From positions 1 to 35,526 of IMG/VR virus record IMGVR_UViG_3300037245_000883: a DNA stretch of 35,526 nucleotides; one strand, given 5' to 3'. Of the stretch, positions 1,202-5,168 are shown in pieces (within the stretch, counting starts at the first letter, position 1; each line of letters starts with the position of its first letter). A program made the translations under genes and the position numbers. The notes under the pieces are model-generated. The model ran no database searches. It was given only the letters and a program-made list of their open reading frames with translations, and had not been told where the DNA came from. This DNA comes from a virus.

Positions 1202-2017
1202 TTATTTTCTAAGTGAAGAGCCCTTAAACTCTATAATATTAAACATTTCAAAAAGTCTGTCAAAAACTCTAGGTCCGTATCTAGTACCAAATTCATCTAA
1301 AGCCCTGGAGACTAGTTTTTCTTTGTCGTCCAACATATAGTTACAGGTTATGTAGGTTTTAGCGCCTCTATTATAGCGTTCTTCTAATATATCTTTTAGC
1401 AGGTTATGCTTTCCATAGTTCGAAGCGTCTTTTTCTGTTTTAACGTCATCAAAATAAGCAGTCTTTGTTTTGGTCCTGTTAATATATTCTGTTCTTTCGC
1501 TTCCGTTCTGGTAGCTCTCGAAAGTAGTAACTATATTGTTAGTGGTAAAGCTTTTAAAAGTTAAATTATGACCATTAAAAAGAGCTTTAAAAGCCTCCAT
1601 TATTGAAGACTTACCACAACCAAAGTCTCCTATAATTAAAATTCCTTTATTAAATGAAGGTTCAGAAATAAAACCTCCTTTAGAATTTCGGCAAAGTCTA
1701 GGATTATTTAAAAAATCTTTATTCTTAGAAAAGTATTGAATTAGAGACATTAAATTCTCTAGTCTACCCTCTCCAGGGTCAAAGTCTACAGCTCGAACAT
1801 GTTTAAAAGCTTTGTAAAACGATTTTAAGAGCTTCTCCTGGTCTATTTCTATTTCCTGGTCCTTTTGTATAGCGTGTAACTTTTCGAAGTATTTCTTTTG
1901 CTCCTCTGTCTTTTTAGGCTTTTTGTCGTTTTCGTATTCTACAACCTTAATTAATTCTGTTTCTGTTAATGATTTATCCAGCATTTTTAGCGCTTGGTAT
2001 TCTCTTGGTCCTATCAT
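1202..2017 (-). CDS. DnaC-like AAA+ helicase loader
   Basis: 271 residues. An N-terminal helical, charged region (about 1-100) is followed by an AAA+ ATPase core. The Walker A motif is G-D-F-G-C-G-K-S-S at about residues 130-138 and Walker B is A-Y-F-D-D-V at about 187-192. A sensor-like stretch (YITCNY) and a C-terminal arginine-rich element (GPRVFDRLFEMFN) follow, as in DnaC/IstB-type proteins. By family knowledge it loads the host replicative helicase DnaB at the phage origin. It starts one base past the stop of the DnaT-like gene (2019-2624), a pair typical of phage primosome modules. It is the last gene before promoter copy 1. No phage helicase or polymerase gene was found, so dependence on host replication enzymes is inferred. 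Confidence 0.85.
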   Translation of the reverse strand: MIGPREYQALKMLDKSLTETELIKVVEYENDKKPKKTEEQKKYFEKLHAIQKDQEIEIDQEKLLKSFYKAFKHVRAVDFDPGEGRLENLMSLIQYFSKNKDFLNNPRLCRNSKGGFISEPSFNKGILIIGDFGCGKSSIMEAFKALFNGHNLTFKSFTTNNIVTTFESYQNGSERTEYINRTKTKTAYFDDVKTEKDASNYGKHNLLKDILEERYNRGAKTYITCNYMLDDKEKLVSRALDEFGTRYGPRVFDRLFEMFNIIEFKGSSLRK

Positions 2018-2018
2018 T

Positions 2019-2624
2019 TTAATATCTATTATGTGAAAAACTACCGTTTCCAGAATTATTATTAGAATCGCTAATATTATTTAACCATTCACTTTTAAAA
2101 CTAATCCAGCTTTTTTCTACTACTAATTTTAGAACTTCGTTTTTATCTTTACCAGATTTTTCTACCTGGTTAATAAATCCTTTATAAGCTGTTTCTGTAT
2201 TAGATGCTTTTTTTTGTTTTCTAACCATTAACCAGTCGTCTATCAATTCTGAATTAAAACCAAAATCTAAAAGAGCTTTTCTAAATACAAACTTTTTTTT
2301 ATTTTCTACTTTCTCTTTTACTTGTACTTTCTCTTTCTCTTTCTCTTCTACTTGTCGGCTAGGGCTATTTACCCCCCCTTCGGTAGGGGTTAATTTAGTC
2401 CTTGTCTTGTCCTCGTAGCCCTTTACCTGACTATCTATAGAGTTAACTTGGCTAATCCAAGCGAATTTAGCCATACCTTCTAGTCCTTCTGGCTTAACTC
2501 CTAAAAATTGTCTATCTAATAAAGCTTTTATAAATGTTAATTTGTCCTCTTCTGGTAGCTCGTTAAACACATCGTAATAGCTCCTAAAGAAATTAAAACC
2601 TTTTCTTTTTGTTTCCTTAAACAT
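2019..2624 (-). CDS. DnaT-like/DUF6291 replication protein
   Basis: 201 residues from the ATG at 2624. A TTG 24 nt upstream is in frame, but the ATG has an outstanding Shine-Dalgarno sequence (2629-2636). The N-terminal 65 residues (FRSYYDVFNELPEEDKLTFI and the following ALLDRQF segment) match the DUF6291 type found in phage and mobile-element replication initiators. A lysine/glutamate-rich linker follows, then a C-terminal helical domain with AYKGFINQVEK and WISFKSEWL, reminiscent of DnaT/DnaD-type primosome proteins. Together with the adjacent DnaC-like gene it probably bridges origin recognition and helicase loading. The linker is encoded by a run of seven C on the plus strand inside a GC-rich hairpin, unusual in this AT-rich genome. 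The 5' end overlaps the HNH gene by 8 nt. Confidence 0.75.
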   Translation of the reverse strand: MFKETKRKGFNFFRSYYDVFNELPEEDKLTFIKALLDRQFLGVKPEGLEGMAKFAWISQVNSIDSQVKGYEDKTRTKLTPTEGGVNSPSRQVEEKEKEKVQVKEKVENKKKFVFRKALLDFGFNSELIDDWLMVRKQKKASNTETAYKGFINQVEKSGKDKNEVLKLVVEKSWISFKSEWLNNISDSNNNSGNGSFSHNRY

Positions 2625-3096
2625 TTCTACCTCCTTCTCTATAATCAATTATTTTATCTGACTTTTTAGAATTACAACTAATACAAAGAGTTTGTAAATT
2701 AGACAAATTGTTAGCTCCTTTTTTATTTACTGGTATTATATGGTCGATACTTAAAGAGTAATTATTTCCACAACATAGACAAATATTATTATCTCTATCA
2801 AATATAAATTTTCTTACATTCTTTTTTCCTATGAATTTTTGAGCAATTCTTCTAGGTTCGTTTCTTAATTTTTCTTTAAACTCAAAAAAGCGTCTTTTTC
2901 CTAAATTTGCTATTTCCATAACAATTAGCCTCTCCTCTATTGTTATTAGATTGTGCTTTCTTAAAACAGATATATTTCCAACTATTCTAGAAACTTCTTC
3001 TGGATTTAAAAAACACCTATCAAATCTATCATCAAAAAGCCAATTCATATCTAAAGTATTATTCCAAATTTCCTTTATTTCCTCATTTCCTAACAT
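2617..3096 (-). CDS. HNH endonuclease
   Basis: 159 residues if started at the ATG at 3096. An upstream ATG at 3129 would place coding sequence across a terminator-type hairpin, so the later start is chosen. The C-terminal third carries a zinc-bound HNH fold: C-x2-C (CLCC), then the catalytic SIDHIIPV, the Asn-containing NLSNLQTLC, and a second C-x2-C with CNSKK. The N-terminal 100 residues are helical and not recognised. Such nucleases in phage replication regions may be homing-type free-standing nucleases or participate in DNA processing. The gene sits between the DnaA/AP2 fusion and the DnaT-like gene, overlapping the latter by 8 nt. Confidence 0.8.
   Translation of the reverse strand: MLGNEEIKEIWNNTLDMNWLFDDRFDRCFLNPEEVSRIVGNISVLRKHNLITIEERLIVMEIANLGKRRFFEFKEKLRNEPRRIAQKFIGKKNVRKFIFDRDNNICLCCGNNYSLSIDHIIPVNKKGANNLSNLQTLCISCNSKKSDKIIDYREGGRNV
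2629..2636 (-). promoter_or_regulatory. Strong Shine-Dalgarno sequence
   Basis: The minus strand reads AAGGAGGT four bases before the ATG at 2624, a full match to the anti-SD of 16S rRNA. It lies inside the last codons of the HNH gene (Glu-Gly-Gly-Arg). Few other genes in this window have such a site, in keeping with weak SD use in Bacteroidota, so it helps choose this start over the upstream TTG. Confidence 0.7.
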
Positions 3097-3109: not shown

Positions 3110-3154
3110 AAAAAAAAGGACTGGTTCATCGATGCAGCGAATCCCCAAGTCCTT
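3110..3154 (-). terminator. Intrinsic terminator or attenuator before the HNH gene
   Basis: On the minus strand AAGGACT (3148-3154) pairs with AGTCCTT (3116-3122). Inner GG/CC and GAA/TTC pairs extend the stem with small bulges, and eight U follow (3110-3117). The HNH start codon is only about 14 nt further on, so the hairpin could act as a terminator for the upstream unit or as an attenuator controlling HNH expression. With a possible -7 box at 3198-3205 it could also bound a short RNA of roughly 80 nt. Confidence 0.65.
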
Positions 3155-3197
3155 AAATGTGTTTGTTATAAATACCCTGCATGGTAATAACTTATGT

Positions 3198-3207: not shown

Positions 3208-3240
3208 AAAATATATTTAAAATGTATTTAAAATGTATTA
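3208..3240. repeat. Three tandem 11-bp direct repeats (iteron-like)
   Basis: Plus-strand units AAAATATATTT (3208-3218), AAAATGTATTT (3219-3229) and AAAATGTATTA (3230-3240) follow one another without gaps. Their period is close to one helical turn. They lie directly downstream of the DnaA-domain-IV/AP2 gene and upstream of the replication genes, as expected of an origin iteron array or an operator for that protein. AT-richness alone could produce similar words, but three exact-phase units in a row are unlikely by chance. Confidence 0.6.
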
Positions 3241-3284
3241 GATAATTTTTCGAACTCTTCTAAGTCCTCGCTTTGAAAATCCAT
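3228..3284 (-). CDS. Candidate 18-residue acidic microprotein
   Basis: The stop of the DnaA/AP2 gene overlaps an ATG in the TAATG arrangement used at several other gene junctions in this genome (20546, 25475, 33832). It opens the short frame MDFQSEDLEEFEKLSNTF. The peptide is strongly acidic. Its stop codon lies inside the 11-bp repeats. Expression is plausible by translational coupling, but a frame this short could be accidental. Confidence 0.3.
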   Translation of the reverse strand: MDFQSEDLEEFEKLSNTF

Positions 3285-3823
3285 TATTTTTTACTTTCTA
3301 GTTCTTTTTTTGCTATTTGGTATGCTATGTAAGCATCATGTTCTAATTTGTAATAGCCTACATGGTAGTTTTCGCCTTTTTTAATGTAAATTGTAACCCT
3401 CCATTTTTTATTGCTATTATTCCAACTAACCCCCCTATAACCAGAAGTTTTAGCCATTAAAGTATCTTTAATTTCTGAATTATCGCCAAAGCTATATTTT
3501 ACATAATCCATTAGAGACTCTAAATTTTCCTTAATTGTAGGATTGAATTCTTTTAGGTCTTCAATAGTTTTTCTAGCGTGAATAACTGTAGAATGTTCTT
3601 TTCCAAAAATAGCTCCAGCTTCTTTAGTTCCATAATTACAATATTTAACTAATAAGTAAAATATAATATATCTTGATTCTACTAAGTTTCTATGTCTAGT
3701 TTTGCTTTTTAACTGCTCTAAACTTATATTTCTAATCTTACAGACTCTTTTTATTAATCCGTCTAACAAGTCTTCTTTATCTACATTTGTAGTTTTGAAG
3801 CTAGGCATGCACCAATAATTCAT
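3284..3823 (-). CDS. DnaA domain IV - AP2 domain fusion protein
   Basis: 179 residues. Residues about 19-92 resemble DnaA domain IV, the helix-turn-helix part of the initiator that reads DnaA boxes. The family signature is visible as AGAIFGKEHSTVIHARKTI (about 70-88). The AAA+ motor of DnaA is absent. Residues about 127-175 form an AP2-type DNA-binding domain (SGYRGVSWNN, KWRVTIYIKKG, then the YYKLEHDAYIAYQIAKKEL helix). AP2 domains in phages often accompany HNH nucleases, but here no HNH motif is in the same protein. Two DNA-binding modules without an ATPase suggest an origin-recognition or repressor protein, possibly for the repeats at 3208-3240. It lies between a coiled-coil ORF and the HNH/DnaT/DnaC genes. 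The domain calls are firm; the role is inferred. Confidence 0.82.
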   Translation of the reverse strand: MNYWCMPSFKTTNVDKEDLLDGLIKRVCKIRNISLEQLKSKTRHRNLVESRYIIFYLLVKYCNYGTKEAGAIFGKEHSTVIHARKTIEDLKEFNPTIKENLESLMDYVKYSFGDNSEIKDTLMAKTSGYRGVSWNNSNKKWRVTIYIKKGENYHVGYYKLEHDAYIAYQIAKKELESKK

Positions 3824-3828
3824 AATTT

Positions 3829-3984
3829 TTATTTAAAAAGTTTATACTGTTTTTTATTTCTTTGCTTCTCTTCTAGTTCCAGGATTAATTCCCTAACCTT
3901 TTTTAACCTCTCTAAAGTTCTGTTATGCTCTTTAGAAAGCTTATTCTCCTCTATTCTAAGATTCGATAATTTTGTAAACTCCAT
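3829..3984 (-). CDS. Small coiled-coil protein
   Basis: 51 residues, starting MEFTKLSNLRIEENKLSKEH and ending in a lysine-rich tail. The middle has regularly spaced leucines (RTLERLKKVRELILELEEK) typical of a short coiled coil. The start overlaps the 3' end of the HTH gene by 29 nt and the stop lies 5 nt before the DnaA/AP2 start, so it fills the gap between two real genes on the same strand. The function is unknown. It may dimerise or modulate its DNA-binding neighbours. Confidence 0.6.
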   Translation of the reverse strand: MEFTKLSNLRIEENKLSKEHNRTLERLKKVRELILELEEKQRNKKQYKLFK

Positions 3985-4186
3985 AAAAAGAACTGTTTCC
4001 GAATCTATTTTTAAAAACTACATTTTCTGTAGTTATATTATAACCCTCTTTTCTTAATTGGTGTATTATTGAGGACAACCTTGTAATTCCGTAATAATTA
4101 ATAGCTATTATTGAATTAATAAAACCTTTTCCTCTTAGATGTATTAAAACCTGCTCTTTTTGAGTTTTTCCTTCGCGTAATAACAT
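3956..4186 (-). CDS. Small helix-turn-helix protein (HTH_39-like)
   Basis: 76 residues. The pattern Q-x-x-V-L-x-H-L-x-x-x-G-F-I (residues about 12-24), followed by AINYYGITRLSSIIHQLRKE and GYNIT, is that of the small winged-helix family common in phages and prophages (HTH_39). In that family the ITRL...I..LR segment is the recognition region. It probably binds DNA as a regulator or replication accessory. It lies downstream of a terminator (4210-4231), so its transcript needs read-through or an unseen promoter. The ATG at 4186 follows an AT-rich leader without a Shine-Dalgarno sequence. Confidence 0.75.
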   Translation of the reverse strand: MLLREGKTQKEQVLIHLRGKGFINSIIAINYYGITRLSSIIHQLRKEGYNITTENVVFKNRFGNSSFYGVYKIIES

Positions 4187-4237: not shown

Positions 4238-4459
4238 TTATTTTTTAATTCCTACTAATCTGTCGTTTTTTAGTCTTCTTTCAAAAAACTTTCCGCTTTC
4301 AGATTTAATTTTTAAAACTCTAGTTTTTGCAGTAACTTTTAAAACCTCTATAATCTCTTCAGTAAAACCAAAGTTCCAAACAGTAACGTCTCCTACTTTT
4401 AAATTAATTGCTTCTGTAGCTTCTACTTTTCCTATTGATTGTAATTGTATACTTTGCAT
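4238..4459 (-). CDS. Small conserved-type phage protein, first gene behind promoter copy 2
   Basis: 73 residues. It contains KVGDVTVWNFGFTEEIIEV, alternating beta-strand pattern residues, and a basic end (FFERRLKNDRLVGIKK). The layout, a short beta-barrel with a 'GD..VWNFG.T' core and 'RR...RLV', recalls a group of small hypothetical phage proteins that may adopt an SH3-like fold. No enzymatic motif is visible. It is the only gene between promoter copy 2 (4500-4530) and the terminator at 4210-4231, so it may be made as a separate, abundant early transcript. Confidence 0.65.
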   Translation of the reverse strand: MQSIQLQSIGKVEATEAINLKVGDVTVWNFGFTEEIIEVLKVTAKTRVLKIKSESGKFFERRLKNDRLVGIKK

Positions 4460-4499
4460 CTTTTTATTTTTTTGTCTGGGTTATTTCCTTAAGACTCTA

Positions 4500-4530
4500 C
4501 AAATATATAAATACAGTTGTAAATACACAA
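4500..4530 (-). promoter_or_regulatory. Promoter/operator copy 2
   Basis: On the minus strand, TTG (4528-4530), 20 nt, TATATTTG (4500-4507), with palindromic TACA/TGTA arms at 4512-4521. The 18 bases TATATTTGTAGAGTCTTA are identical to copy 3 at 8340. It lies 12 nt downstream of the terminator at 4543-4568 and reads into the gene at 4238-4459. Confidence 0.75.
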
Positions 4531-4542
4531 GTATAAGACAAT

Positions 4543-4568
4543 AAAAAAACCACTTATTTTCGTAAGTG
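4543..4568 (-). terminator. Terminator of the recombination operon
   Basis: On the minus strand CACTTA (4563-4568) pairs with TAAGTG (4551-4556) across a 6-nt loop and is followed by seven U (4543-4549). It lies 30 nt past the stop of the NinG gene and closes the operon that begins at promoter copy 3. Confidence 0.75.
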
Positions 4569-4598
4569 CTTGATTTTGAGATAGAATAATTTAACTAT

Positions 4599-5168
4599 CT
4601 ATTTAAAATTCTTTAAAATCTTTTTAGTTTTATCTTTAAAATGCTTCTTTAATTCTATTAATTCTGGTATTGAATACTTAGAAACTAAGCGCTGCGCGTC
4701 CTGGTCTAGTTGTTCCACTTCTGCAGCTCCAATTTTAGCTATAAGTCTAGGTCTATATTCGTGTAAATTACCAGACTTATTTTTATTACAGTTATACCAG
4801 CATTGACTATGCGCGTTTCTTTCGTCTAAAGCTATGTTTCTATAAGTCCCTTGTGGATAAAAATGTCCAGAAGTTAGTCTATAAGTTCCTGGTGGTTTAT
4901 CGCAACTAATGCAGGGTTCGTTTTTATCTCTTGCTCTAATATAGGAGTTAAAAGCCTTTAGTGTTTCCTGGAAATAGTCCTCCCTAGTCTTTAAGGCTTC
5001 TTTTCTGGCTTTCTTTTCCACCTTCCAGGCTTTAGACTCTTTCTCCTGGTCTCTTTTCTTTTTAAGCTCTAAAGCACAAGGAAAAGAACAGACTTCTTGA
5101 ACTGCATTATATGAAGGAGCAAATTTTTGTTTGCAATTTTTACAGGTCCTTTTAGCTGGGTTTCTCAT
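4599..5168 (-). CDS. ninG: NinG/Rap-like recombination nuclease
   Basis: 189 residues. It opens with a zinc-type cysteine cluster (CKNCKQKFAP, then a second Cys pair in the CSFPC segment). A charged coiled region follows, then CISCDKPP, SGHFYPQGTYRNIALDERN and AHSQCWYNCN, the arrangement of the lambda NinG family. Lambda NinG (Rap) is a structure-specific nuclease that resolves branched recombination intermediates, so a role in late recombination or DNA packaging substrates is likely. It is the last gene of the operon with ERF and a NinB-like gene and overlaps the latter by 4 nt. A perfect DnaA-box sequence at 4852-4860 is explained by the codons for Tyr-Pro-Gln. Confidence 0.85.
   Translation of the reverse strand: MRNPAKRTCKNCKQKFAPSYNAVQEVCSFPCALELKKKRDQEKESKAWKVEKKARKEALKTREDYFQETLKAFNSYIRARDKNEPCISCDKPPGTYRLTSGHFYPQGTYRNIALDERNAHSQCWYNCNKNKSGNLHEYRPRLIAKIGAAEVEQLDQDAQRLVSKYSIPELIELKKHFKDKTKKILKNFK

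Follow-up and report, generated by a model that had tools for sequence, protein, structure and literature searches.

A single open reading frame in a virus record of 35,526 bases (GC 32.7%; the whole record is referred to here as the window) encodes a 179-residue protein in which DnaA domain IV and an AP2 domain are connected by a flexible linker (Table 1). Both domains with their folds, the absence of an ATPase, the placement within a replication module and the kinship of each half were observed directly. A preliminary description had read this frame as a motor-less fusion of two DNA-binding domains. Pfam profiles and the folds of an AlphaFold2 model agreed on both domains; each half had a profile match, that of AP2 scoring below the gathering cut-off, and the helix-turn-helix domain and the AP2 sheet were both modelled, confirming that the observation is real. 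Pfam gave no AAA+ match, and domain III of DnaA is absent from the protein. The model, built from an input of 16 sequences taken from the window and fetched loci, had a mean pLDDT of 85 and comprised two confident domains with a floppy stretch between them: a helical domain (residues 16-112) and a three-strand-plus-helix domain (residues 126-178). The two halves of the gene are alike in GC (27% and 30%). An in-frame ATG lies at codon 123, inside the linker and just before the AP2 part; an AP2-only product could start there, although this is a guess.

Table 1 Features of the fusion gene and its surroundings in the window.
Feature	Position	Strand	Basis
DnaC-like helicase loader	1202..2017	minus	PHROG
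O-like / primosomal protein, DUF6291 N-terminal	2019..2624	minus	Pfam, PHROG
HNH endonuclease gene without AP2	2617..3096	minus	Pfam, PHROG
Hairpin then eight T, terminator-like, 3' of fusion gene	3113..3160	minus	sequence read directly
11-bp tandem array, 2.9 copies (AAAATGTATTT), candidate binding site	3208..3239		95% matches
18-codon acidic ORF (MDFQSEDLEEFEKLSNTF)	3228..3284	minus	ATG overlaps fusion-gene stop (TAATG)
Fusion gene: DnaA domain IV - linker - AP2, 179 aa	3284..3823	minus	ORF, Pfam, AlphaFold2 model
AP2 domain, residues 125-178, core SGYRGVSW	3290..3451	minus	Pfam, PHROG, alignment, fold
Flexible linker, low pLDDT, residues 113-124	3452..3487	minus	AlphaFold2 model
DnaA domain IV, residues 16-112	3488..3778	minus	Pfam, 1J1V alignment, fold match
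N-terminal peptide MNYWCMP of fusion protein	3803..3823	minus	alignment of phage DnaA-C proteins
Winged-helix protein (HTH_39)	3956..4186	minus	Pfam
NinG	4599..5168	minus	Pfam, PHROG
NinB	5165..5596	minus	PHROG
ERF single-strand annealing protein	6901..7515	minus	Pfam, PHROG

The DnaA half matched the Bac_DnaA_C profile (PF08299) over residues 23-87 with E=1.8e-15 and 57.1 bits, above the gathering score of 31.5. Comparison of the model with E. coli DnaA domain IV on the DnaA box (1J1V) gave a Z of 16.1 and an rmsd of 1.5 over 93 residues. In an alignment with 1J1V, R43, R51 and H77 of the fusion protein fall at the positions of E. coli R399, R407 and H434, and E76 and S78 replace D433 and T435 with similar residues. 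R407 and H434 are known as base contacts in the 1J1V structure. Across an alignment of 19 phage DnaA-C proteins, only R43, R51 and H77, together with the initiator methionine, never varied. On the DnaA box, R399 inserts into the minor groove, and the major groove is read by the helix 434-451 (PMC5742627). The fusion protein shares the domain IV fold and the base-contact residues with bacterial DnaA but has neither its domain I nor its AAA+ domain III.

A short N-terminal peptide was common to 8 of the 19 aligned proteins (the window, L063, L065, L072, L106, L022, L094 and L020), in the forms NYWCMP, SYWSAP, NYWSAP, NPYAFAG, SPYVFAG, NPWAFAG, NYFCYPG and SYMAAPG. In the window protein this peptide was modelled as disordered, and it is possibly a docking peptide for a partner protein.

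The AP2 profile (PF00847) matched residues 127-176 with E=1.2e-5 and 26.0 bits, below the gathering score of 33.3; the AP2 domain of an endonuclease from a related locus (L077) likewise scored under this cut-off, at 24.7 bits. PHROG families of HNH endonucleases covered the AP2 part only (phrog_99, 2.9e-11, residues 125-175), and neither an HNH motif nor NUMOD4 was found in the fusion protein by Pfam. In the model, strands within residues 132-158 form a three-strand sheet packed on a helix (residues 161-178). The second domain matched plant AP2 folds with Z values (7wq5, 8.0; 7et4, 7.6; 1gcc, 6.9) in a range that is not decisive alone, and sequence, motif and fold were concordant. None of the core residues typical of AP2 (YRGV, W, G and A) is missing.

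The preliminary description had regarded the missing motor as unusual. This did not hold, as many phage replication modules proved to encode DnaA domain IV proteins without an ATPase. Searching for relatives of the O-like protein yielded 80 loci representing homologous phage replication modules, and 26 of these carried a small stand-alone DnaA-C gene, in every case (26/26) on the same strand as the O-like gene, with 21 upstream of it and 5 downstream. Where at least 3 kb of upstream sequence was available, the DnaA-C gene lay within 3 kb upstream of the O-like gene in 18 of 60 loci. Cultured phages (phi18:3, phi19:3, Gundel_1 and HTVC100P) also have DnaA-C genes in or near their recombination and replication genes; in Tenacibaculum phage Gundel_1 the order is NinB, DnaA and two replication proteins, and Cellulophaga phi18:3 is similar. 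Many entries of a viral fold library are titled 'Chromosomal replication initiator, DnaA C-terminal'.

Like the stand-alone proteins (phi18:3 gp012, Gundel_1 gp36, Pelagibacter phage HTVC100P gp21), the fusion protein has domain IV without AAA+ and is encoded in or near a replication/recombination module; in contrast, none of them has an AP2 domain, and identity in our alignments was about 18-33%. The stand-alone proteins of L065 and L063 align end to end with residues 1 to about 106-118 of the fusion protein, so AP2 is an addition to a complete family member. The tree of DnaA-C proteins was poorly resolved. Highly divergent DnaA-C-like ORFs on long branches occur in L047 (6967-7380), L130 (6961-7431) and L139 (1935-2267), and in some of these the usual DH(A/S/T)T recognition motif is gone. 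Five fecal GenBank records that matched the query and are labelled Bacteriophage sp. (MT838945, MT835965, MT835859, MT837670 and MT835476; L003, L004, L005, L009 and L010) encode DnaA with its AAA+ part, and their DNA looks bacterial.

The source of the AP2 half was suggested by genes adjoining DnaA-C in related modules. In L077 and L082, a NUMOD4-HNH-AP2 gene starts 9 nt past the DnaA-C stop and in frame with it, and L139 has another HNH-AP2 gene, flanked by a DnaA-C gene on one side and downstream replication genes on the other. The AP2 domain of the window protein is 44-46% identical to those of the L077 and L082 endonucleases. An HNH_3 match was found in 48 of 63 related viral AP2 proteins, and a DnaA-C match in none of the 63. 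Judged from these neighbours and from the frequency of HNH_3, the AP2 half most likely derives from an HNH-AP2 homing-endonuclease gene. A simple route to the fusion could be a lost stop codon or a deletion where DnaA-C and HNH-AP2 adjoin. The architecture and neighbourhood on which the two-domain reading was based stood, and the HNH-AP2 homing endonucleases of the same modules account for its AP2 domain.

The AP2 tree did not point to a donor: the branch of the window protein lacked resolution and fell outside the clade of L077, L082 and L139. The top AP2 similarity, to L134 and L135, leads back to the same contigs as L077 and L082 and is biased, as those sequences shaped the search patterns. 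The fusion protein shares the AP2 domain with NUMOD4-HNH-AP2 and IPA-HNH homing endonucleases, but nothing is left in it of their HNH and NUMOD4 parts. Small AP2-only ORFs without HNH were also seen, at 6832-7050 in L037, directly after a DnaC-like gene, and in L041 and L042.

Each half is of a kind already known, and what is new is their joining. A survey for this architecture, which the preliminary description had called unusual, returned the window only; no other fusion of DnaA-C with AP2 was found in IMG/VR, GenBank phage or plasmid records by the searches used, which reach close relatives, exact patterns and the neighbours of related replication genes. A pattern scan of IMG/VR for the AP2 core at 120-150 nt behind the DnaA helix motif, with patterns that took neither CAC as the histidine codon nor alanine as the residue after it, gave six matches, all due to chance as judged by translation. 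No relative was obtained in a whole-protein scan of IMG/VR and 84,980 genomes with short exact peptides, which reaches close relatives only, or in a scan of the genomes for the O-like protein. The fusion is likely, though not proven, to be rare. It is carried by a single metagenomic contig, and the joined frame is possibly an assembly error.

The genes around the fusion bore out the replication neighbours given in the preliminary description, with the O-like primosomal gene and the DnaC-like loader downstream. The minus-strand order is ERF, NinB, NinG, winged-helix, fusion gene, HNH gene, O-like primosomal gene and DnaC-like loader. A relative of the winged-helix protein is encoded directly upstream of the DnaA-C gene of L063. 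Going by the relatives of the phage, we infer that its host is a member of the Bacteroidota. The small acidic ORF that overlaps the fusion-gene stop extends into the tandem repeats. The terminator-like hairpin beyond it was not flagged by the terminator scan, which had a loop limit of 8, and Rfam gave no match. In L085, too, the O-like gene is immediately preceded by a gene of the same family as the window's HNH gene (4275-4769); from these two cases, this HNH gene may be a resident of the spot. It was also considered as the lost half of a split HNH-AP2 gene, which is unlikely since its HNH class differs and its relative precedes the O-like gene in L085.

The 'iteron-like' repeats of the preliminary description are real as one short tandem array of 11 bp; binding of the fusion protein to this array is conjectural. 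Sites resembling the DnaA box (TTATNCACA, at most one mismatch) occurred at chance across the window (36 versus 36 expected), and the boxes around related DnaA-C genes formed no cluster beyond chance. With no cluster of DnaA boxes, neither the origin-recognition nor the repressor role put forward earlier gains support from the sites.

We favor, at about an even chance of being right, the reading that a phage DnaA-C protein, belonging to a recombination/replication module of Bacteroidota type, gained an AP2 domain of the HNH homing-endonuclease type and so became the fusion. In this reading a DnaA-box-like site would be taken by the DnaA head and a second site nearby by the AP2 head, which a flexible tether of about 12 residues would let reach it. 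The two heads together would tag the origin or the early control region of the phage, where the O-like and DnaC-like proteins would be helped to act. As the fusion protein has no motor, ATP-driven melting of DNA as carried out by DnaA is impossible for it, and melting and helicase loading would have to come from other proteins. The occurrence of a DnaA-C gene in about a third of the O-like modules (18/60) indicates that it is not an obligatory initiator, and argues for an accessory part. The protein probably acts at the phage origin or at early promoters. A stronger version, in which the fusion is a bivalent, ATPase-less origin recognizer whose captured endonuclease targeting domain adds specificity, such that two unrelated folds read the phage origin at once, appears improbable to us.

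The fusion may instead be a transcription regulator with a recycled DnaA-type domain and AP2 as its second DNA-binding domain, a reading that is possible but doubtful. The model for it is GafA, the activator of the Rhodobacter gene transfer agent RcGTA, in which an N-terminal DnaA-like domain is needed for promoter activation and is accompanied by a second DNA-binding region (PMC9638019). GafA resembles the fusion in combining a motor-less DnaA-like domain with a second DNA-binding domain, but its own second domain is sigma-factor-like, with no evident homology to AP2, and GafA binds the omega subunit of RNA polymerase. In the literature searched, no functional study of a motor-less DnaA domain IV protein of a phage was found, and GafA was the nearest studied case. 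DnaA itself also regulates transcription (PMC8203912), and DNA-binding domains of homing endonucleases are proposed to have given rise to plant AP2 factors and to the phage-satellite protein CapR (PMC10448857). The winged-helix gene that adjoins the fusion gene fits a regulator as well. However, it is primosome genes that the fusion gene accompanies, not a lysogeny switch, and the analysis turned up neither a binding site nor a target promoter.

That the AP2 tail is a passive, functionless remnant of a homing endonuclease reading into the DnaA-C gene is unlikely. The HNH-AP2 genes that directly follow DnaA-C in L077 and L082 could be fused to it by such a stop loss or deletion, and the fusion was seen just once. 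However, decay would be expected of a tail that serves no purpose, whereas the AP2 core residues are kept and the domain is confidently modelled; nor did the tree resolve a source endonuclease. Competition with host DnaA, in which the fusion would occupy host DnaA boxes (TTATCCACA) and block chromosome initiation during infection, is very unlikely: the base-contact residues are kept and the motor is missing, as in a dominant-negative, and the prophage protein YfdR offers a precedent in binding DnaA (PMC4776307), yet the gene lies among phage replication genes and the AP2 head would be superfluous.

Under the preferred reading of a phage DnaA-C protein that gained an HNH-type AP2 domain, the fusion would be a further case in which the targeting domain of a selfish nuclease is put to new use; plant AP2 factors and CapR are cases proposed earlier (PMC10448857). 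Motor-less DnaA domain IV proteins are recurrent in phage replication modules and little studied, and the fusion with an endonuclease domain hints that phage DnaA-C proteins may work by placing something on DNA.
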